DNA from: an uncultured Candidatus Pelagibacter sp.
GTDB taxonomy: Bacteria; Pseudomonadota; Alphaproteobacteria; Pelagibacterales; Pelagibacteraceae
Assembly: GCA_905612435.1 (NCBI GenBank)
Contig: CAJQRZ010000017.1
Location: 1 to 36,231 of the forward strand
Reading direction: 5' to 3'
DNA length: 36,231 bases
Shown piece by piece: positions 10,519 to 25,488 of this stretch; position 1 is the first letter of the stretch, and each line of letters opens with the position of its first letter. The position numbers and the translations under genes are program-made. The notes below the pieces were generated by a model that made no database searches, was not told the DNA's origin, and saw only the letters and a program-made list of their open reading frames with translations.

Positions 10519-10773
10519 ATGTCAAAATCAAAATTTATGTTTGATAAATTTGCTAAGTTAATTGAAGAAGGTTTTATATCTTATAAAGACTTTAGTTCAG
10601 AAATTTTAAATATATTAAAATCAAAAAGAGATGAAATCATTTTTAAAATGAAACTTACAAGTAAAGAAGAAACAGATATTTTAAATAAGAGAGTTGAAAA
10701 CTTAGAGAAAAAAATTCAAAAATTAGAAAAAAATTATTTAAAAAAAAGATCTAAAAAGGTAAAAAAACTTTAA
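10519..10773 (+). CDS. ubiK: Ubiquinone biosynthesis accessory factor UbiK (BMFP-domain protein)
   Basis: This 84-residue protein has the UbiK/YqiC layout: an N-terminal amphipathic helix (about residues 6-45), then a long trimeric coiled coil (about 48-76, with NKRVENLEKKIQKLEKN), and a very basic tail ending KKRSKKVKKL. UbiK in Escherichia/Salmonella assists the UbiJ-organised complex of late ubiquinone enzymes. The match is by length, helix order and the coiled coil rather than strict residues, so function is moderately sure. It is a lone plus-strand gene between lgt and the sensor kinase, and its last 23 bases overlap the 3' end of the kinase gene on the other strand. Confidence 0.8.
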   Translation: MSKSKFMFDKFAKLIEEGFISYKDFSSEILNILKSKRDEIIFKMKLTSKEETDILNKRVENLEKKIQKLEKNYLKKRSKKVKKL

Positions 10774-12070
10774 CTCTTAAACCATTCATTGGAGATTCAT
10801 CTAGAGTGATTTTTCCACCATGTGATCTGATTACATCAGATGCAATCGATAGACCAAGTCCAACGCTAGATTTTGAACCACCTCTACTTTTATCTATTTT
10901 AAAAAATGGTTTAAAAACATTATCGTAATATTTTTTTTTAATTCCAGGTCCATCATCATCTACTAATATGATTATATTGTTATTAGTTTTTTTTAATTCA
11001 ATTTTAATATTTTCAGCATACTTTATGGAATTATCAATTAAATTATTTAAACATCTCTGAATTAAATTTTTTCGACCATCTATATAAATTCTTTGACTTA
11101 AATCTGATTTAATATTTTTATTGTCATATCTTTTAATGGTTTTTTCTATTAATTCACTGATATTAAAAGTTTCTGTTTTTTCAGCAGAACGTGAACTTGC
11201 AAATTGTAAGTATTCATTTAACATTTTTTCCATTTCCATCACATCTTCAGACAGTTTTATTGAAATATTTTTATCTTTTATGAATGCTAGTTGTAATTTC
11301 ATTCTAGTTAGAGGAGTTCTTAAATCATGACTAATGCCTGATAACATCTCGGATCTCTGATTTAAGTGTTTACTTATTCTTTTTCTCATTTTGTCAAATT
11401 CGTATCCAGCTTGTCTTATTTCGAGGGCTCCAGATGGTCTAAATTCATTTACATCTTCACCTCTTCCGAATCTTTCAGCCGCCTTTGCTAAATTTATAAT
11501 TGGTCGAGTTTGATTCTTTAAAAAAATAATTGCTATGGTTATTAATAAAAAAGCTGGAAGAGTAATCCACAAAGCAAACATTCTTGCAGAAGTAGTCGTT
11601 ATTCTTTCCTTTGGAATATAAAATTGAAAATAGCCATTATTATAACTAATTTTAAGATCAATTAAATCCTTGTATGTAGTTGTGTCAAACCAATACTTTA
11701 ATTTTTTAGATTTAAGTTCTCTTCTTAAAGTTCTATCAGTTGGACTAAACCACCTTTCCTGGTTTTGTTTTGGTAAAATTTTTGATGCTTTAAATTTTAC
11801 ATTAAAATTAAGATGTTCTTGAAAAAGCTTAGTTAGTAAATCTTTATTATATTTTTCTACTTCATAAGCGGCAATAAATGTTTTAATTTCTCCGACTAAA
11901 GCTCGTGTCATTCCTTTATTAGTTTTTATCCAAAGACTATCAAAAAAAACAATTGAAATAGTTATTTGTAAAATAATAATTGGTGTAGCAACAATTAATA
12001 GAGCACGGTAAAATAATTGTCTTGGTAATAAACTTTTTATAAATCTAAGCAATCCATAAAACATAGCCAA
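10751..12070 (-). CDS. EnvZ-type membrane sensor histidine kinase
   Basis: A 439-residue two-component sensor. It has two membrane spans (about residues 22-43 and 164-184) enclosing a periplasmic domain of about 120 residues, a HAMP linker (185-237), the phosphoacceptor helix GISHDLRTPLTRMK with H248, and a HATPase domain with the N box NLIDNSIKYAE, the G1 box DDDGPGI and the G2 box VGLGLSIA. The periplasmic part shows no domain I recognise. It overlaps the upstream response regulator by 26 bases, so the pair is cognate and translationally coupled. An EnvZ/OmpR label is used for such proteins, but the alphaproteobacterial context suggests a different stimulus from osmolarity. Confidence 0.93.
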   Translation of the reverse strand: MAMFYGLLRFIKSLLPRQLFYRALLIVATPIIILQITISIVFFDSLWIKTNKGMTRALVGEIKTFIAAYEVEKYNKDLLTKLFQEHLNFNVKFKASKILPKQNQERWFSPTDRTLRRELKSKKLKYWFDTTTYKDLIDLKISYNNGYFQFYIPKERITTTSARMFALWITLPAFLLITIAIIFLKNQTRPIINLAKAAERFGRGEDVNEFRPSGALEIRQAGYEFDKMRKRISKHLNQRSEMLSGISHDLRTPLTRMKLQLAFIKDKNISIKLSEDVMEMEKMLNEYLQFASSRSAEKTETFNISELIEKTIKRYDNKNIKSDLSQRIYIDGRKNLIQRCLNNLIDNSIKYAENIKIELKKTNNNIIILVDDDGPGIKKKYYDNVFKPFFKIDKSRGGSKSSVGLGLSIASDVIRSHGGKITLDESPMNGLRVKVFLPF

Positions 12071-12722
12071 CTCCTCTTATTGTTTGAAGGTACTTTGGGT
12101 TTTTGGGTTCGATTTCAATTTTTTTTCTCAATCTAGTTATTATAACATCAACAGATCTTTCTTTATCTATTTTAATTAATTTACCAATAGACTCTCTAGA
12201 AAAGGTTTGTCCAGGCGCATTAATCATTTTTTCAAGTATAATTTTTTCAGTATTGTTTATCTTAAATTCTCTAGAATTTTTAAGAATTAATGATTTATTT
12301 AAGTCTATTTTTACATTATCAAATTTAATAATTTGTCTTTGGTTATTTTTTTTAGTTTTATTGAGAATATTTTTAATTCTTAATATAAGTTCTTTAGGCT
12401 CAAAGGGTTTAGGTAAATAATCATCAGCGCCAATTTCTAATCCTTTAATTCTTTCATTAGCCTCTCCTTTTGCAGTTAAAAGTATTATCGGTGTTTGAAT
12501 TACTTTTTTATACTCCTGAACAAATTCTAAACCACTTTTACCTGACATCATTATATCCAGTACAATTAGATCAAATTTAATTACTTCTACTTTTTTAATT
12601 GCATCTTCGGCACTGTTTGCAGTCGTAATAAGAAAGTTATTTTCAGTCAAATATTGCCTAACCAAAGACCTAATACCATCATCATCATCAACAACCAAAA
12701 TATGTGCCACAAATTTATTCAT
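12045..12722 (-). CDS. OmpR-family response regulator, PetR-like
   Basis: A 225-residue DNA-binding response regulator. The receiver domain (1-120) has the acidic pocket VDDDD (11-15), phosphoacceptor D56 in LIVLDIMM, T83 and K105 in LPKPF. The C-terminal winged helix (about 128-225) ends with RSVDVIITRLRKKIE and YLQTIRGVGYVL. It overlaps marR by 8 bases and the kinase by 26. In Rhodobacter capsulatus a MarR-type PetP and an OmpR-type PetR are encoded together upstream of the bc1 genes and are needed for respiratory growth. This MarR-regulator pair has the same domain make-up, and petABC is 6 kb away here. Orthology to PetR is inferred. Confidence 0.92.
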   Translation of the reverse strand: MNKFVAHILVVDDDDGIRSLVRQYLTENNFLITTANSAEDAIKKVEVIKFDLIVLDIMMSGKSGLEFVQEYKKVIQTPIILLTAKGEANERIKGLEIGADDYLPKPFEPKELILRIKNILNKTKKNNQRQIIKFDNVKIDLNKSLILKNSREFKINNTEKIILEKMINAPGQTFSRESIGKLIKIDKERSVDVIITRLRKKIEIEPKNPKYLQTIRGVGYVLWIA

Positions 12723-13152
12723 TAATTATTCTTTTTAAAACATTATTAAAATTAAGGACTTCTTCTGAATTAGAATTTAAAAGTGCTGTATAAATTCTTT
12801 TTTTTTGTATAGTAAATATTTCATTAAAAATTTTTTCCCCTTTTTCATTTAGAAAAACATGTTTTATTCTTGTGTCTTGTTTATCTTTTTCAAAAATAAT
12901 TACTTCTTGTTTTATTAAATCCTTTAGGATTCGGTTTAAACTTTGTTTGGTTACTTTTAGTTTTTTTAATAATTCAGAAATAGAGATACCTTTATACATC
13001 GATAATAAATGTATGACTTTATGGTGGGCTATACCAAATGAATATTTATCCAATATTTTCTTTGCATCGGCAAAAGATTCTCTGTAACCAATGAAGAGTT
13101 TTTCTAGGATATCTTTTAATTGATCATCTTTTAAGTATAAAAGTTCTTTCAT
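12715..13152 (-). CDS. MarR-family transcriptional regulator, PetP-like
   Basis: A 145-residue winged-helix regulator. The DNA-binding core spans about residues 42-110: SFGIAHHKVIHLLSMYKG, then SISELLKKLKVTKQSLNRILKDL as helix-turn-helix, and the wing with DKQDTRIKHVFLNEKG. The GxAHHxV(I/L)H and TKQSLxRxL signatures resemble the alphaproteobacterial PetP group more than classical MarR. It is the first gene of the three-gene regulator operon and overlaps the response regulator by 8 bases. It is divergent from ilvE across 70 bases, where promoter-like elements on the two strands overlap, so autoregulation or control of ilvE is possible but not shown. Confidence 0.9.
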   Translation of the reverse strand: MKELLYLKDDQLKDILEKLFIGYRESFADAKKILDKYSFGIAHHKVIHLLSMYKGISISELLKKLKVTKQSLNRILKDLIKQEVIIFEKDKQDTRIKHVFLNEKGEKIFNEIFTIQKKRIYTALLNSNSEEVLNFNNVLKRIINE

Positions 13153-13222: not shown

Positions 13223-14104
13223 ATGATACCTTACGATAAAAGATCTGGCAAAATTTGGTACAATAACCAGCTTGTTGATTGGTCAGATGCCAAAATACAT
13301 ATTTTAAATCATGGACTACATTACGCTAGCTGTGTTTTTGAGGGAGAAAGAGTTTATGAAGGTTCAATTTTTAAATTAGAAGAGCATACCTCAAGACTTT
13401 TTTATTCAGCAAAAAGAATGGGGATTACAATTCCATATGAAGAAGACGAAATAAATTTAGCATGTAATAAAATTATTTCAGTCCAAAGTGTACAAAATGG
13501 ATATGTTAGACCGATGGTTTGGAGAGGAAGTGAGATGATGGCAATCTCGGCGCAACAAACAAAAATTCATGTCGCAGTTGCAACATGGGAGTGGGGGTCT
13601 TATTTTGATCCAAAACTAAAAGTAGAAGGAATTAGATTAAATATTTCTAACTGGAGAAGACCGGCCCCGAATACAATACCTTGGGATACAAAAGCATCAG
13701 GTCTTTATATGATTTGTACACTATCAAAGCATGAAGCTGAACAGCAGGGATATTCTGATTCTTTAATGCTTGATCATGAGGGAAATGTTGCAGAAGCAAC
13801 TGGAGCTAATATTTTTTTTAAAGATAAAAATGGAGGTATTCATACACCAACTCCAGATTCTTTTTTAGATGGGATAACAAGAAGAACAGTAATTGAAATA
13901 GCTAAATCAAAAGGTATTAAAGTTCATGAAAGAAAAATTGCTCCAACAGAATTATCAAATTTTGTTGGATGTTTTTTAACAGGAACTGCTGCAGAAGTAA
14001 CACCTGTATCTTGTATTACTGAAAATCAATTTAAAGTTTGTGATACAATAATTGATTTAAATAAAAGTTATCAAGCTTTAGTTAGAAAAAAGAAAGTAGC
14101 TTAG
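13223..14104 (+). CDS. ilvE: Branched-chain amino acid aminotransferase
   Basis: IlvE is a fold-type IV PLP enzyme that transaminates the keto acids of leucine, isoleucine and valine with glutamate. The 293-residue protein shows the N-terminal HILNHGLHYASCVFEGERVY block (about 26-45), the PLP lysine K157 in WDTKASGLYM, the class IV signature EATGANIFF (191-199), and the TGTAAEVTPV segment near the C-terminus. It is monocistronic, flanked by the divergent marR and the convergent pgsA, whose stop codons overlap by 4 bases. D-amino acid transaminase and 4-amino-4-deoxychorismate lyase share the fold, but length and the N-terminal block fit IlvE. Confidence 0.96.
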   Translation: MIPYDKRSGKIWYNNQLVDWSDAKIHILNHGLHYASCVFEGERVYEGSIFKLEEHTSRLFYSAKRMGITIPYEEDEINLACNKIISVQSVQNGYVRPMVWRGSEMMAISAQQTKIHVAVATWEWGSYFDPKLKVEGIRLNISNWRRPAPNTIPWDTKASGLYMICTLSKHEAEQQGYSDSLMLDHEGNVAEATGANIFFKDKNGGIHTPTPDSFLDGITRRTVIEIAKSKGIKVHERKIAPTELSNFVGCFLTGTAAEVTPVSCITENQFKVCDTIIDLNKSYQALVRKKKVA

Positions 14105-14685
14105 TTTTTATTATCTTCTGATATTGCGTGGTCAATACCTTTTCTTAAATATTCATAACCTGTATACAAAGTTAAGAACGCAGACAGCCAAAGAAGGATT
14201 ATGCCAATAGTTTGAGCATTATAATTCTGGAAGTTTAAAATTTTATTTCCAGTTTCACCTGTTAATAAAAGTGAAATAGCCACCATTTGCAAAAACGTTT
14301 TTAATTTTGCTAAATTAGAAACGGGTAACCTAATTTTTCCTTTTGCAAGAAACTCTCTTAGCCCAGAAATTAAAATTTCTCGTGTTAATATTATTATTGC
14401 AGCAATTACCTCATAGTTTCTAATTGTTCCATCCATAACCAGGAGTATTAATGCTGTAGCTACAATAATTTTATCTGCTATTGGATCTAATAGCTCTCCC
14501 AATTTAGATTCTTCTCCTAGCATTCTTGCCAACATGCCGTCTAAAAAATCAGTAAATGATGCAATTACAAATAATACAAATGCAGTTAAATCTCCATAAA
14601 AACCAGGCAAATAAAACGCAAGTACAAAAAATGGTACTAATATTATTCTACCAATAGTTAATAAATTTGGGATTTTTTTAAGCAT
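14101..14685 (-). CDS. pgsA: CDP-diacylglycerol-glycerol-3-phosphate 3-phosphatidyltransferase
   Basis: PgsA forms phosphatidylglycerolphosphate from CDP-diacylglycerol and glycerol-3-phosphate, the committed step to phosphatidylglycerol. The 194-residue membrane protein carries the full CDP-alcohol phosphatidyltransferase motif D(x2)DG(x2)AR(x8)G(x3)D(x3)D, with D46, D49, G50, A53, R54, G63, D67 and D71. Several hydrophobic spans lie on either side. It follows uvrC by 2 bases, matching the uvrC-pgsA order common in proteobacteria, and is the last gene of the minus-strand train. It converges on ilvE with a 4-base overlap. Confidence 0.97.
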   Translation of the reverse strand: MLKKIPNLLTIGRIILVPFFVLAFYLPGFYGDLTAFVLFVIASFTDFLDGMLARMLGEESKLGELLDPIADKIIVATALILLVMDGTIRNYEVIAAIIILTREILISGLREFLAKGKIRLPVSNLAKLKTFLQMVAISLLLTGETGNKILNFQNYNAQTIGIILLWLSAFLTLYTGYEYLRKGIDHAISEDNKN

Positions 14686-14687
14686 AA

Positions 14688-16523
14688 TTATTCGTGAAAA
14701 AAGTTATATATCTTTTTTGCAACTTTTTCCTCAACACCTTCGACTGATTTAATTTCATCAAAACTGGCAGATTCTACAGCTCTAGCAGAGCCAAAATGGT
14801 TTAATAATGATCTTTTTCTGATAGATCCAATGCCATCTATTTGATCTAACATTGATTTTCTAATTCCTTTGGCTCTTTTAGTTCTATGAGAATTGATTGC
14901 GAATCTATGAGCCTCATCACGGAGTCGTTGCATAAAAAATAGTGTAGGGTCATTTCTTTCAAATTTAAATGATTTGCCATTGTAAAAAAAAGTCTCATCA
15001 CCACTATTTCTTAGTTTGCCTTTTGCAATAGCAATCATAGGAAGATCGTACAGGCCAAATTCATCTAATATTTCTTTAGCTGAAGAATATTGTCCTTTCC
15101 CTCCATCAATTAGTATTAAATCTGGTAATGTTAGGTAGTTTCCCTTTTCAAGCATTGCTCTTTTAAACCTTCTGGTAAGAACTTCTTTTAACATTGCAAA
15201 ATCATCTTGCTCTGCACCTTTAGTTTTAATATCAAATTTCCTATATCTTTTTTTAATAAAACCTTCATTCCCAAAAGTTACCATTGCACCGACACTATTT
15301 GTTCCTGAAATATGACTGTTATCGTAAACTTCAACTAAACTTATACCATTTTTAAGGTTAAATTTCTTAGATATTCCTTCGAATAAATTTTTATTATTAT
15401 TAGTTTCATAAAGTTTTCTATTTAATGACTCTTTGGCATTTTTTTCGGCCATTGCAATGACTTTAGCTTTAGTTCCTTTTTTTGCTACATTAATGGAGAT
15501 GGTATTATTTTCTTTTTTACTCAAAGTTTCTTCTATTAATTTTTTATCATTGATACCAGAATTTATTATTATTAGCTTTGGAACACTTTTATTTTCATAA
15601 AATTGCATTAAAAAAGAAGACATAATTTCATTAACATTTTGATCAGGATCATGTTTTGGAAAATAAGCTTGATTGCCCCAGTTTTGTTTAGATCTATAAA
15701 AAAATACCTGAATACATGTTTTGCCAGATTCTTTGTAAACTGCTATTACATCGGCATCGACAAGGTTTGCTTCATTAATTCTTTGTGATGATTGAATTAT
15801 ATTTAAGGATTTAATTCTATCTCTGAAAATAGAAGCTCTTTCAAAGTCAAGTTTGTCACTAGCTTCTTCCATTTGTTTTGATAAGTTTTTTTGAATATCT
15901 CTAGATTTTCCAGAGACAAACTGGATTGCATGATCAACTGATTTTTTATAATCATCTTTATTTATATAATTAACACAAGGTCCAGAGCATCTTTTTATTT
16001 GATAAAGTAGGCAGGGCCTCTTTCTACTTTTAAAAGTAGAGTCATCGCAAACCCTTAATTGAAATATTTTTTGAAGCATTTTTATTGTCCAATTTGCCGT
16101 TCCAGCAGAAGCAAAAGGTCCAAAATAAAAACCATCTTTATCTTTCTTTCCCCTATGTTTTGTAACTTGCGCCCACTGATCATTGTTACTGATAAAGATA
16201 AAAGGAAAAGACTTATCGTCCTTAAGTAATATATTGAATTTAGGTTTATATTTTTTGATTAAATTAGCCTCTAAAAGTAATGCTTCGCTTTCATTAGCTG
16301 TAGTCGTTATCTCTAATTTAAAAGTTTGAGACAGCATTCTTTCAGTTCTAATAATGTGATTTTTTTCAGTTATATAGCTTTTTAATCTATTAGGTAAATT
16401 TTTTGCTTTTCCAACATATAGAATATCATCTTTATGATTAAGCATCCGATAAACACCAGGACTTTTAGGGATTAAGGGGAGTTCTTTTCTAATTACTTCT
16501 TTACCTAGTTCAGAACTTTTCAT
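14688..16523 (-). CDS. uvrC: Excinuclease ABC subunit UvrC
   Basis: UvrC makes both incisions in nucleotide excision repair. An N-terminal GIY-YIG nuclease contains [20 protein letters not shown]. Four cysteines follow in the pattern C-(x11)-C-(x7)-C-(x3)-C around [17 protein letters not shown], positioned like the [4Fe-4S] ligands of UvrC. Then come the UVR helix ([20 protein letters not shown]), the RNase H-like 5' nuclease with [18 protein letters not shown] and [10 protein letters not shown], and C-terminal helix-hairpin-helix motifs. I chose the ATG at 16523 (611 residues). A GTG at 16562 in frame would add 13 residues and lengthen the folB overlap to 53 bases, but the ATG start is closer to the family N-terminus and has a purine-rich leader. 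Confidence 0.96.
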
Positions 16524-16935
16524 GACTTCTTTTTTTGGTAATTTGGATACCAACAGAGGCACATTCTTTTATGATTTCTAACTTTTCAATTTGAAGCATT
16601 ATTTTTCCAATTCGTTTATCTTTAAATAATACATCAAAAACATCTTCGGCTAGTGTTTCTAAAAAATTGTAATGTTTTTTTTTTGCAAGTTTTGTAATTA
16701 ATTTTACAACTTGGCCGTAATTAACAATAGATTTAATATCTTTATCATTTGTTGGTTTTTTATCTTCGTAATCAATTTCTAAGCTAAATTTTAACTTTTG
16801 TATTTTTTCTTTTTCAAAATCATAATATCCAAGTTTTAAATTTAGAATTAATTCTTTGATAAGTATTTTTTTTTCGTAATTAAATAAATTTTTGCCCTTA
16901 TCTAATTTTATAATATTTAAATTATTTTTTTTCAT
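16510..16935 (-). CDS. folB: Dihydroneopterin aldolase
   Basis: FolB converts 7,8-dihydroneopterin to 6-hydroxymethyl-dihydropterin in folate synthesis. The 141-residue protein is slightly longer than the usual ~120 because of about 20 extra N-terminal residues ([20 protein letters not shown]). The core has [51 protein letters not shown], with the conserved Tyr and Glu of the active site, and a C-terminal [13 protein letters not shown]. It overlaps the SDR gene by 4 bases and the start of uvrC by 14. Divergence is considerable, but the aldolase blocks are clear. Confidence 0.88.
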
Positions 16936-17684
16936 TCTTTTCCAATTACATCTGGTGTCTGCCAGTTTAAACTTTGTCCACTATCTATTGCAATTACCTG
17001 ACCTGTAATTGAACTGTTTTTGATAAAAAAGTCAACAGCAGAACATATGTCTTTTACACTTACCTGTTGTTTTAAAGGCGTTGCTAAATACTGTTTTTTA
17101 AAATGCATATCATTTTGTCTTTTATTTTTTATGGTTGGTCCAGGTGCAATCCCATTAACTCTTATATTAGGAGCCAAGTCCATAGCGCTAGTTTTTGTAA
17201 GAGTATACAGGCCAGATTTACTTAAAGTATATGAAAAAAAAAACGGTGTTAATTTAAAAACTCTTTGATCAATTATATTAATAATATTATTATTTTTACC
17301 TTTTGTATTTTTTGAAAATTCTTTTGTAAGGTATGCTGGAGCTTTTAAATTTACATCTAGATGCTGATTCCAACTTTTAGAAGAAAAGCTTTTAAGGCTA
17401 TCATTTTCAAACAGTGAGGCATTATTAATTAAACAATCAAAATATTTTAATTTTGATTTTGAAAATTTTATGATTTTTTTTAGATCTTGTTCTTTTGCAA
17501 GGTTACCTTTTACCAAATATACTTTCGTTTTATTTTTTAATAATTTTTTTTGTAGTTTTTCAGCTTCTTTTTTAGAATTTTTATAATGAATTACCATCTC
17601 AACTCCTGGACCTGAGAGCTTTTCTGCGATAGCAGCACCCATTCTCGTTGCTGCACCAGTAATTATTATTTTGTTTGCTTCCAT
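16932..17684 (-). CDS. SDR-family reductase, pteridine reductase / FolM-like
   Basis: A 250-residue short-chain dehydrogenase. The cofactor loop is TGAATRMG (9-16), the TGxxxRxG form with Arg that is characteristic of pteridine reductases, rather than the usual TGxxxGxG. NNAS is at 87-90. The catalytic set is D139, Y152 and K156, where classical SDRs have Ser; the same Asp-Tyr-Lys spacing (13 and 4) occurs in trypanosomatid PTR1 (D181, Y194, K198). Placement between uvrB and folB, overlapping both (19 and 4 bases), supports a pterin or folate substrate. I infer reduction of dihydromonapterin or dihydrofolate. Oxidoreductases of this fold are promiscuous, so the substrate remains unproven. Confidence 0.85.
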
Positions 17685-19837
17685 TTTTTCTTACCTTTTT
17701 GTGCTCTTGTACCAGGTAAACCCATTGTTGATCTACCCTTTGGATATGTTCTGTTTTCTTGGTTATAGTGTTTTACTTTTGGATTTAAAACAATTTCTAA
17801 TTCAGAAGCCTCTATATTCCTTATTTCGTCCCTTATCTTTGCAGCTTCTTCAAATTCAAGGTTAGTTGCAGAATCCTTCATTCTTTTATTTAATGCTTTT
17901 AAGTGTTTTTTTAAGTTTCCACCAATATTGTCTCCTGTACCTACTTTTAGATAATCTTTTTCATAAACACTTTGTAAAACATCATTAATTTCTTTTTTGA
18001 TAGAGACTGCATCAATATTATGCTTTTTATTATAAGCAACCTGTATTGATCTCCTTCGATCCGTTTCTTGTATTGCTTTTTTAATACTTTTGGTTTCTTT
18101 GTCAGCATAAAGAATCACTCTACCATCAAGATTTCTTGCTGCTCTCCCAATAGTTTGAATTAAGGAGGTCTCAGATCTTAAAAATCCCTCTTTATCAGCA
18201 TCTAAAATTCCAACTAATGCGCACTCTGGAATATCAAGTCCCTCTCTTAAAAGGTTTATTCCAACTAAGACGTCAAATACACCAAGCCTAAGGTCACGCA
18301 TAATTTCTATTCTCTCAAGTGTATCAATGTCAGAATGTAGATATCTAACTCTTATTCCATTTTCGTGAAAGTATTCTGTTAAATCTTCTGCCATTTTTTT
18401 TGTTAAAGTGGTTACTAATATTCTGTAATTTTTATCAATTGTTTTTTTACATTCATACATCAAGTCATCAACTTGATTCTTTGCTGGTTTAATCTCAATA
18501 GGCGGATCAATTAATCCAGTCGGTCTTATAACTTGTTCTACAAATTTACCTTTTACTTGCTCTAGTTCCCAAGGACCGGGTGTTGCGGATACAAAAACTG
18601 TTTGTGTTCTCATGGCATCCCATTCTTCAAATTTTAGAGGTCTATTATCCATACAAGAAGGTAGTCTAAAGCCATATTCTGCAAGATTACTTTTCCTAGA
18701 TCTATCTCCTTTATACATTCCATTTAATTGAGGAACTGTTACGTGGCATTCATCTACAAAAATAAGAGTGTTGTCAGGAAAATATTCAAATAGAGTGGGA
18801 GGTGGTTCTCCTGGTTTTCTTCCTGATAAAAAACGAGAATAGTTTTCAATTCCTGCACAAGATCCTGTTGCTTCAATCATTTCTAAATCAAATTTAACTC
18901 TTTCTTCCAATCTTTGTGCTTCAAGTAATTTATTTTGTTCTTTAAATTTTTTTAAAGTTACTTCTAGTTCTCTTTTAATTTTTATTATTGCTTGCTCGAT
19001 AGTTGGCTTGGGAGTGATGTAGTGACTATTTGCATAAATTTTTATTATATCTAAGTCATTTATTAGATCTCCTGTTAAAGGATCAAACTCTTCAATTTTT
19101 TCTAGTTTGTCACCAAATAAACTTAACCTCCAAGCTCTATCTTCTAAGTGTGATGGAAATATTTCAAGATATTCCCCTCTTGCTCTAAAGGTTCCTCTAT
19201 AGAAGCTTTGATCATTTCTTTTATATTGAAGGGCTACTAATGATTTAATTAACTGCTCTCTATTGTAGTCATAATTTTTTTTTAAACTTAATGTCATTTT
19301 ACTGTATGCCTCAACAGAGCCTAAGCCGTAGATACAAGACACACTTGCAACAATAATTACATCATCTCTCTCTAATAGCGATCTAGTAGCCGAGTGACGC
19401 ATACGATCAATTTGTTCATTAATGGATGCTTCTTTTTCAATATAAGTATCTGATCTCGGAACATAAGCTTCAGGCGTATAATAGTCATAGTAGGAGACAA
19501 AATACTCAACAGCATTATCTGGAAAAAAAGATTTCATTTCGCCATAAAGTTGAGCAGCAAGTGTTTTATTGGGGGCAAGTATTAGGGCCGGTCTATTAGT
19601 TTCCTGAATAACCTTGGCCATTGTAAAAGTTTTTCCAGAACCAGTTACTCCTAGTAAAACTTGGTTTATTTCATTTTTTTTTGTGCCGCTAACTAATTTT
19701 TTTATAGCGTCAGGTTGATCTCCAGCAGGTTTAAAATCTGTTACAAGTTTGAACTTTTTTCCACCTTCCAATTTTTGATGAATTTCTGGATTTTTACTTT
19801 GTATTTCAGTAATTAAATCTTGATAAGTATTTGGCAT
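17666..19837 (-). CDS. uvrB: Excinuclease ABC subunit UvrB
   Basis: UvrB is the damage-verifying helicase-like subunit of excision repair. The 723-residue protein has the Walker A motif [12 protein letters not shown] (about 63-74), the beta-hairpin region [20 protein letters not shown] (about 116-135), a Walker B-type [11 protein letters not shown] in place of the more usual DESH, helicase motifs V and VI including [10 protein letters not shown] and QTIGRAARN, and a C-terminal UVR domain ([17 protein letters not shown]) that contacts UvrC. It begins the train uvrB-SDR-folB-uvrC-pgsA and overlaps the SDR by 19 bases. I see no alphaproteobacterial LexA box in the short upstream spacer. Confidence 0.98.
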
Positions 19838-22041: not shown

Positions 22042-22995
22042 ATGACAAAATTAAAAGGGTTATTATTAACAGAAGGTATGCACGGCATGGTTAGCCAAGT
22101 TGAAGGGTTGGCGAAGGCTCTAGATTTAGATTTTATACACGAAAAGATTGAACTTAATAATTTTTGGAAATTATTTCCACCCAAAGTAACGCCCATTCAT
22201 GATTTTGTTTTTAAAAATAAGATTAATAGTCAGTTTAATATTGTTATTTCCTGTGGAAGAAAAAGTGTAATTCCATCAATTTATTTAAAGAAGAAACTTA
22301 AAAAAAAAATTATAAATATTCACATTCAAGAACCTAAAGTTTCATTAGATAATTTTGATTTTGTTGTTGTTCCTGAGCACGACGGTCTAAGAGGAGATAA
22401 TGTAATAACAAGCAAGGGTGCGATTCATTATTTAACTAATGAAGAATTAGAAAAAAATGAAAATTATTTAAAACCTAGAATAAACACCCAAAAGAAAATT
22501 GTTACATTGATAATTGGAGGGCCAACCAAGTATTATGATTATAACGATAAAATTGTAGATAGCATTTTTTCAAAGATTGAACAAAATTTTTTAAAAAATA
22601 ATTATCAATTAATCATTATTCCATCCATGAGAACTCCAGAGCATATAATTGAAAAAGCTAGAAATTATTTTAATGATGATCAGATCTTAATCCCTAGTGT
22701 TGATAAAAAAGCCTATCTTTCTTCATTAAAAATATCAGATCATATTATTGTTACTTGCGATTCTACCTCGATGATTTCTGAAGCGGCAATTACAGGAAAG
22801 CCAATTTATGTAGCTCAAATGCCAGCAATTAAAAATAATCAAAGATTTAAAAGTTTTTTTAATTTATTTGAATCTTTAAATATAATAAAAGAATTAAATA
22901 ATTCAGTTGAAAACTGGACTTATACAAAATTAAACGAAACAAATAAAATAGCAGACCAAATAAGAGAAAAAATTAAACAATATGACTTTTCTTAA
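22042..22995 (+). CDS. Mitochondrial-fission ELM1-like family protein (GT-B-like fold)
   Basis: This 317-residue protein matches the DUF1022/ELM1 family, named after a plant protein needed for mitochondrial fission; the bacterial role is unknown. Visible blocks are the N-terminal LLTEGMHGMVSQVEGLAKAL, a SCGRKSVIPSIYLKK segment, IHIQEPKVSLDNFDFVVVPEHDGL, LIIGGPTKYYDY and VTCDSTSMISEAAITGKPIYV. The arrangement, with a C-terminal S-E-A block, resembles nucleotide-sugar GT-B glycosyltransferases. AAGGA just ahead of the ATG is one of the few clear Shine-Dalgarno-like sites here. It overlaps the following oxygenase by 14 bases, so the two are coupled. The biochemical function is not known to me. 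Confidence 0.85.
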   Translation: MTKLKGLLLTEGMHGMVSQVEGLAKALDLDFIHEKIELNNFWKLFPPKVTPIHDFVFKNKINSQFNIVISCGRKSVIPSIYLKKKLKKKIINIHIQEPKVSLDNFDFVVVPEHDGLRGDNVITSKGAIHYLTNEELEKNENYLKPRINTQKKIVTLIIGGPTKYYDYNDKIVDSIFSKIEQNFLKNNYQLIIIPSMRTPEHIIEKARNYFNDDQILIPSVDKKAYLSSLKISDHIIVTCDSTSMISEAAITGKPIYVAQMPAIKNNQRFKSFFNLFESLNIIKELNNSVENWTYTKLNETNKIADQIREKIKQYDFS

Positions 22996-23644
22996 TTCAA
23001 TTTTAAACAATTCAAAGGAACATAATAACCCTTTTAAACATTGGGAACTAAATGAACCTTTATCAAAAGAAGCAATTATCGAAATTATAAAAGCAGACAT
23101 ACCAGATTTAAATGAACTTGATTTAAAATACGATGGAACTAGAGCAATTGATGGTGGTGCACCCGAGTTTAGGGAGGGGATTATGAGCGGTGGCAAAGCA
23201 ATAAAATTTAGATGCTTTATTACAAAAAAAAATAGTACAAAGTTTCCAGCTTTAACTAAGTTGATTAACGAACTTCAATCAAAAGAGACATGTTCGAAAA
23301 TTTCAAGCCTTATAAATAGAGATCTGTCTAATTCCTATGTAAGAGTAGAGGTAATTTGTGATCGAAAAGGATTTTGGCTTAAACCACATTGTGACATTAA
23401 AGAAAAACTAGTCTCATGCTTGTTATTTGTTAATCAATTTAATGAATCTGAAACGCTAGGTACTGATTTTTATAATGAAAAGTTAGAAAAAGTTAAAACT
23501 ATTTTATATAAAAATAACTACGGTTACTTCTTTACTAGTGGTCCTAATACTTGGCATGGAATGGAAAAGAAGGAAATAGTTAAAGAAAGACGTTGTTTAC
23601 AGGTGAATTACGTCTCTTTTCCTACAGATTGGAAAGTGAAGTAG
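22982..23644 (+). CDS. 2-oxoglutarate/Fe(II)-dependent oxygenase-like protein
   Basis: A 220-residue protein whose C-terminal half has the double-stranded beta-helix metal triad of Fe(II)/2-oxoglutarate oxygenases: H136 and D138 in LKPHCDIKEK, and H192 in NTWHGMEKK. An arginine 11-12 residues later (R203/R204) is suited to bind 2-oxoglutarate. The N-terminal 70 residues include an unusual GGAPEFREGIMSGGKAIKFR segment. The substrate is unknown; related small oxygenases hydroxylate proteins, amino acids or secondary metabolites. It overlaps the ELM1-like gene by 14 bases. Its final codons (WKVK-stop) are echoed downstream of the next gene (WKVE-stop). Confidence 0.8.
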   Translation: MTFLNSILNNSKEHNNPFKHWELNEPLSKEAIIEIIKADIPDLNELDLKYDGTRAIDGGAPEFREGIMSGGKAIKFRCFITKKNSTKFPALTKLINELQSKETCSKISSLINRDLSNSYVRVEVICDRKGFWLKPHCDIKEKLVSCLLFVNQFNESETLGTDFYNEKLEKVKTILYKNNYGYFFTSGPNTWHGMEKKEIVKERRCLQVNYVSFPTDWKVK

Positions 23645-24924: not shown

Positions 24925-25488
24925 TCAATTCCAACTTATTTCAAACATCGCTTCATTTCTTCGAGACATAGGAAGTGTGAATGGTTTATCATAAGTTGCT
25001 CTGATTTCTGGACCAATAATTGAAATGCTTTCATCTAAAAGTATTTTTTCTAAAATTTTTTTATGTTTAATAAAATTTATATCTGAAGCTCTTCCTGAAT
25101 ATTGAATAACAGCATAAAATCCCTCTTTAATATTTACAATCTCAATATCTGATCTTGTTGGATTTGGGATATTATTTTTATTAAATTTTGTTGGAAGAAA
25201 AAATTGCAGTATCATTTTATCTTTTTTCTTGATTTGAGTCACTGGGGCTGTCATTTTAATTTTTTGATTGTTATCATTTTGCCCAGAGATATAACCAAAT
25301 AATTTTCGAAAACTATTATTACCATCCTTACTTATAGTTTGGATAACTACTCGATCAGAATATTTTCTTATCTCATAAATTTCATTTTTTTTTACAACAT
25401 CATATTTTGCTTCATCGTAAGCCATCACTTTAGAATATGAACATATGAATAAAGTGTAAATTAGAATAATTACTAATTTTTTTTTCAT
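24925..25488 (-). CDS. Exported SOUL-family heme-binding protein
   Basis: A 187-residue protein of the SOUL/HBP family. A signal peptide (about residues 1-23, hydrophobic core VIILIYTLFICSY, cut near VMA-YD) directs it to the periplasm or membrane. The mature part begins with YDVVKKNEIYEIRKYSDRVV, the usual 'yevie..g.yeiR.Y' opening, and contains the KMTAPV signature (about residues 82-87) and a C-terminal ATYDKPFTLPMSRRNE block. Animal homologs bind heme or porphyrins; the bacterial role is not established. It lies 12 bases downstream of carB on the same strand at the end of the carA-carB run, though co-function is not implied. Confidence 0.88.
   Translation of the reverse strand: MKKKLVIILIYTLFICSYSKVMAYDEAKYDVVKKNEIYEIRKYSDRVVIQTISKDGNNSFRKLFGYISGQNDNNQKIKMTAPVTQIKKKDKMILQFFLPTKFNKNNIPNPTRSDIEIVNIKEGFYAVIQYSGRASDINFIKHKKILEKILLDESISIIGPEIRATYDKPFTLPMSRRNEAMFEISWN

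Follow-up and report, generated by a model that had tools for sequence, protein, structure and literature searches.

A PruA/FolM-type pteridine reductase encoded beside folB as a candidate for the missing dihydrofolate reductase of SAR11 bacteria

ThyX does not convert tetrahydrofolate to dihydrofolate. Organisms that use ThyX are described as needing no high dihydrofolate-reducing capacity, and in 2007 the enzyme that makes tetrahydrofolate in ThyX bacteria lacking FolA was called not yet identified (PMC1971073). The use of ThyX by SAR11 bacteria is already expected in print (PMC5954106). A DHFR-TS null line of Leishmania infantum is reported to grow with a bacterial ThyX, and PTR1 could then not be eliminated (PMC8104401).

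The closest described relatives of the enzyme considered here are the pteridine reductases PruA, FolM, and PTR1. According to a 2026 review (PMC13259868), the PruA group of Alphaproteobacteria is distinct from the FolM proteins of E. coli and P. aeruginosa. The same review reports that A. tumefaciens PruA and its B. abortus homolog make no effective use of H2folate, and that P. aeruginosa FolM, 30% identical to PruA, is most active with H2folate. E. coli FolM has been called DHFR1 (PMC1971073) and has also been described as a poor dihydrofolate reductase (PMC5587915). The structure of TbPTR1 with methotrexate is described as follows: an Arg binds the cofactor pyrophosphate, Ser95 binds pteridine N2, Phe97 stacks on the pteridine, Phe97 and Phe171 flank the pABA group, Asp and Tyr pass the proton, and Lys positions the nicotinamide (PMC1618733).

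The window, that is, the whole stretch of DNA analysed, comprises 36,231 nucleotides of a 1.1-Mb, 71.5%-complete assembly (G000) of an uncultured Candidatus Pelagibacter sp. A 250-aa frame on the minus strand occupies 16932..17684, exactly where a sequence-only reading had placed a pteridine reductase gene within a train of repair and folate genes next to folB, and the neighbours agree with that description. folB, for dihydroneopterin aldolase (16510..16935, minus strand), lies directly downstream and overlaps the 3' end of the reductase gene by 4 bases; its product matches PF02152 with E 1.6e-21, scores 74 bits with TIGR00526, over the cut-off, and 59.6 bits with TIGR00525, under the cut-off of 72.15. 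Upstream, the last 19 bases of uvrB (17666..19837, minus strand; NF003673, 1060.7 bits) also belong to the start of the reductase gene. uvrC (14688..16562, minus strand; TIGR00194, 572.7 bits) overlaps the end of folB; its start codon was taken from the ORF list, and the real start may be slightly downstream. The conserved run ends with a pgsA-like gene for a CDP-alcohol phosphatidyltransferase (14101..14685, minus strand; PF01066, E 4.3e-39), which is conserved next to uvrC. The run in the window thus reads uvrB-folM-folB-uvrC-pgsA, the reductase gene taking the folM place.

Other features were seen elsewhere in the window. A gene for a SOUL heme-binding domain protein (24925-25488, minus strand; PF04832, E 5.3e-41) lies just downstream of carAB-like genes. 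At 22042-22995 on the plus strand there is a match to PF06258, 'Mitochondrial fission ELM1' (E 1.3e-77), and this ELM1-like gene is overlapped by a 220-aa ORF (22982-23644, plus strand) that matches nothing in Pfam at E<=0.001. Genes for a histidine kinase, a response regulator, and a MarR-like regulator are consecutive at 10751-13152 on the minus strand; SAR11-type genomes are described as having few transcriptional regulators.

The gene order was compared across 135 loci with the reductase gene, namely 80 named SAR11 loci, 20 + 15 from other genomes of the order, and 20 from the wider class, some genomes being counted twice. The best 80 named loci returned were all from Pelagibacter, Pelagibacteraceae, or Pelagibacterales (SAR11); the closest relative among them, RIS_SAG_29, is 96% identical to the window reductase, and the copy of Candidatus Pelagibacter ubique HTCC9565 (L031) is 92% identical. 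By tblastn, uvrB is upstream on the same strand in 124/135 loci and folB and/or uvrC downstream in 130/135, counts in which the SAR11 loci are partly non-independent (L031 and L141, and likewise L104 and L002, appear to be the same assembly). The whole run plus a divergent aminotransferase gene is present in 82/135 loci, and many of those without it end at contig ends or are short fetched stretches. The 20 class-wide loci often keep these neighbours (uvrB upstream in 11, folB and/or uvrC downstream in 18); therefore, the repair-folate run is widespread in Alphaproteobacteria and not peculiar to SAR11.

One further arrangement was noticed in a single case. In the alphaproteobacterium G163 (L118, G163:C1:303734-316474) the reductase gene and thyX share a strand, with a gap of about 570 bases; this would link the reductase directly to ThyX. 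In its family-mates G261 and G331 the two genes are about 37-45 kb apart.

The window protein is almost certainly a PruA/FolM-type pteridine reductase that would reduce pterins, as judged from its sequence and predicted structure. Among the best 25 of the 209 NCBIfam models matched, NF006597 (PRK09134) alone passes its cut-off (285.5 bits against 281, E 3.3e-85, residues 4-248). NCBIfam names this model merely SDR family oxidoreductase; it appears to be the model of the PruA group. The second best model, NF006598 (PRK09135, pteridine reductase family), scores 189 bits, below its cut-off of 288. The scores also fall below the cut-offs for FabG 3-oxoacyl-ACP reductase (TIGR01830, 114 bits vs 297.75), E. 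coli-type FolM/dihydromonapterin reductase (NF005066, 111.5 vs 249), the trypanosomatid PTR1 equivalog (TIGR02685, 100.8 vs 321.7), and the bifunctional dihydropteridine/dihydrofolate reductase TmpR (NF012208, 100.4 vs 325). The family assigned by the sequence-only reading, PTR1/FolM, stands as far as the pteridine reductase type is concerned and is more exactly, in all probability, the alphaproteobacterial PruA-type group.

Structural comparison points to the same relatives. The best sequence matches in the PDB are 5tgd (E 1.1e-53), named 'FolM Alternative dihydrofolate reductase' from Brucella, and 5bt9 (E 9.7e-53), whose title says FolM and whose sequence-file name is acyl-carrier-protein reductase; the next match is at 1e-24. 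An AF2 model built from a 37-sequence alignment of the window protein and relatives has a mean pLDDT of 92.2, and its best 8 Foldseek chains are all from NADP-bound 5bt9 or 5tgd (TMq 0.88-0.92, rmsd 1.5-1.8). In pairwise comparison the window protein is 33% identical to TbPTR1 (115 bits), 25% to E. coli FabG (65 bits), and 23% to E. coli FolM (60 bits). A 45-row tree places E. coli FabG together with seven other SDRs of the SAR11 order beyond a 100/99 branch; eight such comparison SDRs had been fetched, and L156, a 141-aa frame, was dropped. 5tgd sits among the alphaproteobacterial class sequences, and A. tumefaciens PruA is absent from the tree. PTR1 and E. coli FolM are long branches whose placement has 49/1 support, the class sequence L124 does not group with the rest of the Alphaproteobacteria, and only 18% of bootstrap trees unite all 35 alphaproteobacterial rows.

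The active site can be traced residue by residue. Residues 9-16, TGAATRMG (17637..17660, minus strand), form the TGX3RXG cofactor loop with Arg14, and the catalytic triad D139...Y152xxxK156 (17217..17270, minus strand) aligns with D161-Y174-K178 of TbPTR1. Both had been recognised in the sequence-only reading, which gave the triad the spacing of PTR1 D181-Y194-K198; the 13/4 spacing was confirmed and holds for TbPTR1 as well. Beyond that residue list, the pterin-binding Ser90 and the stacking Phe92 (NNASxF) are also present: NNASLF, residues 87-92 (17409..17426, minus strand), supplies the equivalents of TbPTR1 Ser95 and Phe97 in the alignment to 2c7v. In all, Arg14, Ser90, Phe92, Asp139, Phe149, Tyr152, and Lys156 correspond to TbPTR1 Arg14, Ser95, Phe97, Asp161, Phe171, Tyr174, and Lys178. 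The protein thus has the residue pattern of pteridine reductases, with TGX3RXG rather than the SDR TGX3GXG, Asp-Tyr-xxx-Lys, and the stacking aromatic F92. All seven residues are invariant in 115/115 loci of the SAR11 order, some genomes occurring twice (for example, L031/L141). Among 123 class-wide sequences, Arg14, Phe92, Asp139, and Tyr152 are each kept in 122, Lys156 in 117, and Ser90 in 114. Five of the seven (Arg14, Ser90, Phe92, Asp139, and Phe149) are not shared by E. coli FabG, which has TGASRGIG at the loop and Ser at the Asp139 position.

Based on these aligned residues, the enzyme would be an NADPH-dependent pteridine reductase, NADPH being suggested by the NADP-bound homologues. 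The Arg14 loop would bind the cofactor, the pterin ring would lie between the nicotinamide and Phe92 with Ser90 on its 2-amino group, and a 7,8-dihydropterin would be reduced to the tetrahydro form.

The folate genes of the SAR11 order bear on which dihydropterin matters. The sequence-only reading had supposed an organism without a classical dihydrofolate reductase and proposed a search for folA, thyA, and thyX. Run on the order, that search found folA (PF00186) over the cut-off in 0/147 genomes, thyA in 0/147, and thyX in 131/147, including the window's own genome (101/105 at >=90% completeness); phhA was found in 0/147. The same searches in 14 control genomes found folA in 9, thyA in 9, thyX in 6, and phhA in 1 (Caulobacter). 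The combination named beforehand as speaking against the reading, a folA together with a FabG-like placement, was looked for as well, and neither part was found in the 147 genomes or the tree. The reductase (E<=1e-50) is present in 133/147 genomes and in 99/105 at >=90% completeness. folK is present in the SAR11 genomes G001, G003, and G005 of the class sample and gave no match in the 71.5%-complete assembly of the window.

There were ten weak PF00186 matches in the order, at 18.6-20.9 bits. By sequence reading, the one at L022 falls in a MurD-like ligase of 440 aa, encoded next to an FtsW-like gene, and the one at L021 in a phytoene synthase, so both were rejected as divergent FolA; the eight others (440-451 aa) resemble L022 in size and matched part. 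Similarly, the 14 genomes of the order without a strong reductase match were not taken as real losses. Six of them are 92-95% complete and eight 58-85% complete, and given completeness of 58-95%, absent sequence is the simpler reading.

Since the order has no FolA over the cut-off and uses ThyX, the SAR11 reductase would most probably have as its chief substrate dihydrofolate (or dihydropteroate) supplied by de novo synthesis. Because ThyX spares tetrahydrofolate, we infer that a slow reductase of broad specificity would suffice. The overlap with folB may tie the reductase to the pterin branch, as the gene order suggests. Taken as a whole, the statement that this is a pteridine reductase with dihydrofolate (or dihydropteroate) as its main substrate in SAR11 is one that, going by sequence evidence, we consider somewhat more probable than its negation. 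For the dihydrofolate reductase that SAR11 seems to lack, the reductase is at present the strongest candidate, and this role is argued from gene content, namely the lack of folA in the order and the retention of the reductase together with folK. The suggestion that it could supply reduced folate accordingly fits the gene content and sits less well with the biochemistry of the nearest relatives; it stays at the level of a proposal. By analogy, the SAR11 gene set may be likened to the Leishmania case above: DHFR is absent, and ThyX is paired with a PTR1-like enzyme. No earlier proposal of this gene as the SAR11 dihydrofolate reductase was found in a search of open-access papers by title, abstract, and selected passages.

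The association with folate synthesis was examined in 241 alphaproteobacterial genomes, the window's genome plus 240 at >=95% completeness. The reductase (E<=1e-50) is present in 170, folA in 95, thyX in 150, phhA in 53, and folK in 190. folA and thyX strongly tend to exclude each other (both in 12 genomes, p 2e-41, n=241). Without regard to folK, the reductase is independent of folA (67/95 folA+ vs 103/146 folA- genomes, p=1). The split by folK, a marker of de novo folate synthesis, was added after this result had been seen. The reductase is then kept in 98/106 folK+ folA- vs 63/84 folK+ folA+ genomes (p=0.001), in 5/40 folK- folA- genomes (one being the incomplete G000), and in 4/11 folK- folA+ genomes; 71 of the 98 are without phhA. 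When one genome per family was counted (126 families; G285, G300, G318, and G365, which have no family label, were excluded), the reductase is found among folA- genomes in 46/52 with folK vs 3/24 without (Fisher p 1.5e-10), and among folA+ genomes in 29/42 vs 2/8 (p=0.04). Within folK+ families the contrast between folA+ (29/42) and folA- (46/52) is weak (p=0.037), and these counts ignore kinship deeper than the family. It should be noted that NF006597 was scored on <=10 SDR candidates per genome, so that some absences may be misses; G236 may be one, since the reductase is present in G312 and G375 of the same family.

The reductase accompanies folate synthesis in both folA backgrounds, and more tightly without folA. 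As the association with folK is also seen in folA+ genomes, the link to folate synthesis extends beyond the folA-less genomes, and the 63/84 folK+ folA+ genomes that keep the reductase point to another role there. Eight folK+ genomes (G227, G241, G242, G245, G305, G355, G373, and G378) have neither folA nor the reductase by these searches, so other solutions exist.

A broader view can be put forward only tentatively, and we would not bet on it: in Alphaproteobacteria that lack folA and depend on ThyX, SAR11 among them, the regular dihydrofolate reductase may be a PruA-type enzyme, with FolA having taken over in Agrobacterium and Brucella. A. tumefaciens and Brucella presumably have folA. The uvrB-folM-folB-uvrC locus would then be the site of an SDR-based folate cycle, and the Agrobacterium and Brucella SDR would have drifted to signalling once FolA took over, position 146 being a possible marker. 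Residue 146 (codon 17247-17249, minus strand) is Thr in the window protein and aligns with TbPTR1 Cys168 in the active-site cleft. Thr is found there in 73/77 folA-less vs 26/47 folA-bearing relatives, and Asn in 5tgd. Among 2254 residue tests on 123 sequences, the strongest folA contrasts are at positions 168, 245, 246, 148, and 146. folA status switches 12 times on the tree vs a shuffled mean of 38, and position 146 changes in 1/6 small mixed clades; therefore, the specificity positions are leads, confounded by kinship.

The main competitor of the dihydrofolate reading is that the enzyme reduces dihydropterins only, like Agrobacterium PruA, and that another enzyme reduces dihydrofolate; tetrahydromonapterin or tetrahydroneopterin would then have an unrecognised use as antioxidant, signal, or hydroxylase cofactor. 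It agrees with the specificity of both PruA-type enzymes with reported kinetics (PMC13259868): such relatives are poor on H2folate and the nearest solved homologues are from Brucella, which argues against a dihydrofolate reductase role. The retention of the reductase in 63/84 folK+ folA+ genomes favours this reading as well, and since dihydroneopterin aldolase is reported also to epimerise dihydroneopterin to dihydromonapterin (PMC1971073), the folB neighbour fits a dihydropterin-only role too. Possible users of tetrahydropterin are phenylalanine hydroxylase and PruR-DcpA signalling, PruR being a protein of about 170 aa (PMC13259868), yet phhA is found in 0/147 genomes of the order and a PruR-sized PF00174 match in 0/25 SAR11 genomes, so that the supply of tetrahydromonapterin suggested by the sequence-only reading found no consumer in these searches. 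PF00174 by itself is a weak test for PruR; it matches in 10/25 SAR11 genomes, each time within an ORF of 298-428 aa. Of the 49 folA+ reductase+ phhA- genomes, the first 34 were scanned, and 7 of these contain short, weak matches (182-263 aa), putative PruR at most. Moreover, the small genomes of the order keep the reductase (99/105 at >=90% completeness), and a dihydropterin-only enzyme would leave SAR11 without a candidate for the dihydrofolate step. We regard this reading as a real possibility, clearly behind the dihydrofolate one.

A dual role, in which the enzyme, like trypanosomatid PTR1, would reduce both free dihydropterins and the dihydrofolate needed for one-carbon metabolism, appears improbable. 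TbPTR1 is described as acting on pterins and folates (PMC1618733), the window protein is nearer to it (33%, 115 bits) than to E. coli FabG or FolM, and the H2folate preference reported for P. aeruginosa FolM (PMC13259868) points the same way; against this, the phhA and PF00174 searches identified no demand for free tetrahydropterin in SAR11, and the PTR1 equivalog score is 100.8 bits against a cut-off of 321.7. That the gene encodes an ordinary FabG-like or other non-pterin SDR which chances to adjoin folB has hardly any likelihood left. The SDR fold is shared, and Foldseek matches FabG with TMq 0.83-0.86, but the NF006597 score of 285.5 bits compares with 114 for the FabG equivalog, E. coli FabG has other residues in place of Arg14, Ser90, Phe92, Asp139, and Phe149, and the 100/99 branch separates E. 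coli FabG and the seven SAR11-order SDRs. This identity was rejected on model scores, active-site residues, and the tree; folB and/or uvrC downstream in 130/135 loci also speaks against a chance neighbourhood.

The interest of the case lies in its SAR11 host and in the clean test it allows; the enzyme family itself is already known. If the reductase is the SAR11 dihydrofolate reductase, the 2007 question closes for a large part of the ocean plankton. One survey used dihydrofolate reductase (EC 1.5.1.3) as a folate marker for a set in which the LD12 genus Fonsibacter was represented (PMC7527133), and surveys based on EC 1.5.1.3 could then wrongly score these bacteria as dependent on folate. Otherwise, SAR11 has another dihydrofolate reductase or keeps tetrahydropterin for another purpose, which would also be of interest.

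The window protein has TGX3RXG and YX3K in common with A. tumefaciens PruA as the review describes that protein (PMC13259868), and its W241-x-T-P-D tail resembles the C-terminal extension reported for PruA (PMC13259868). Unlike A. tumefaciens PruA as described, it has no N-terminal extension; PruA is reported to feed PruR-DcpA biofilm signalling, whereas 25 SAR11 genomes gave no PruR-sized PF00174 match. The Brucella proteins 5bt9 and 5tgd are about 39-40% identical over nearly the full length and have the same active-site residues, with Asn in 5tgd where the window protein has Thr146. 'Alternative dihydrofolate reductase 1' is the title given by the Brucella depositors, and the profile reported for the B. 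abortus homolog is PruA-like (PMC13259868). E. coli FolM shares the TGX3RXG loop and the S, D, Y, and K residues, but has Trp in place of Phe92 and is 23% identical; its gene has no folate gene adjoining within the 8 kb shown, unlike the gene in the window. Trypanosomatid PTR1 has inserts relative to the window protein in the alignment and is reported to reduce fully oxidised pterins (PMC1971073); at 33% identity, all seven active-site residues of TbPTR1 (2c7v) are matched in the window protein.
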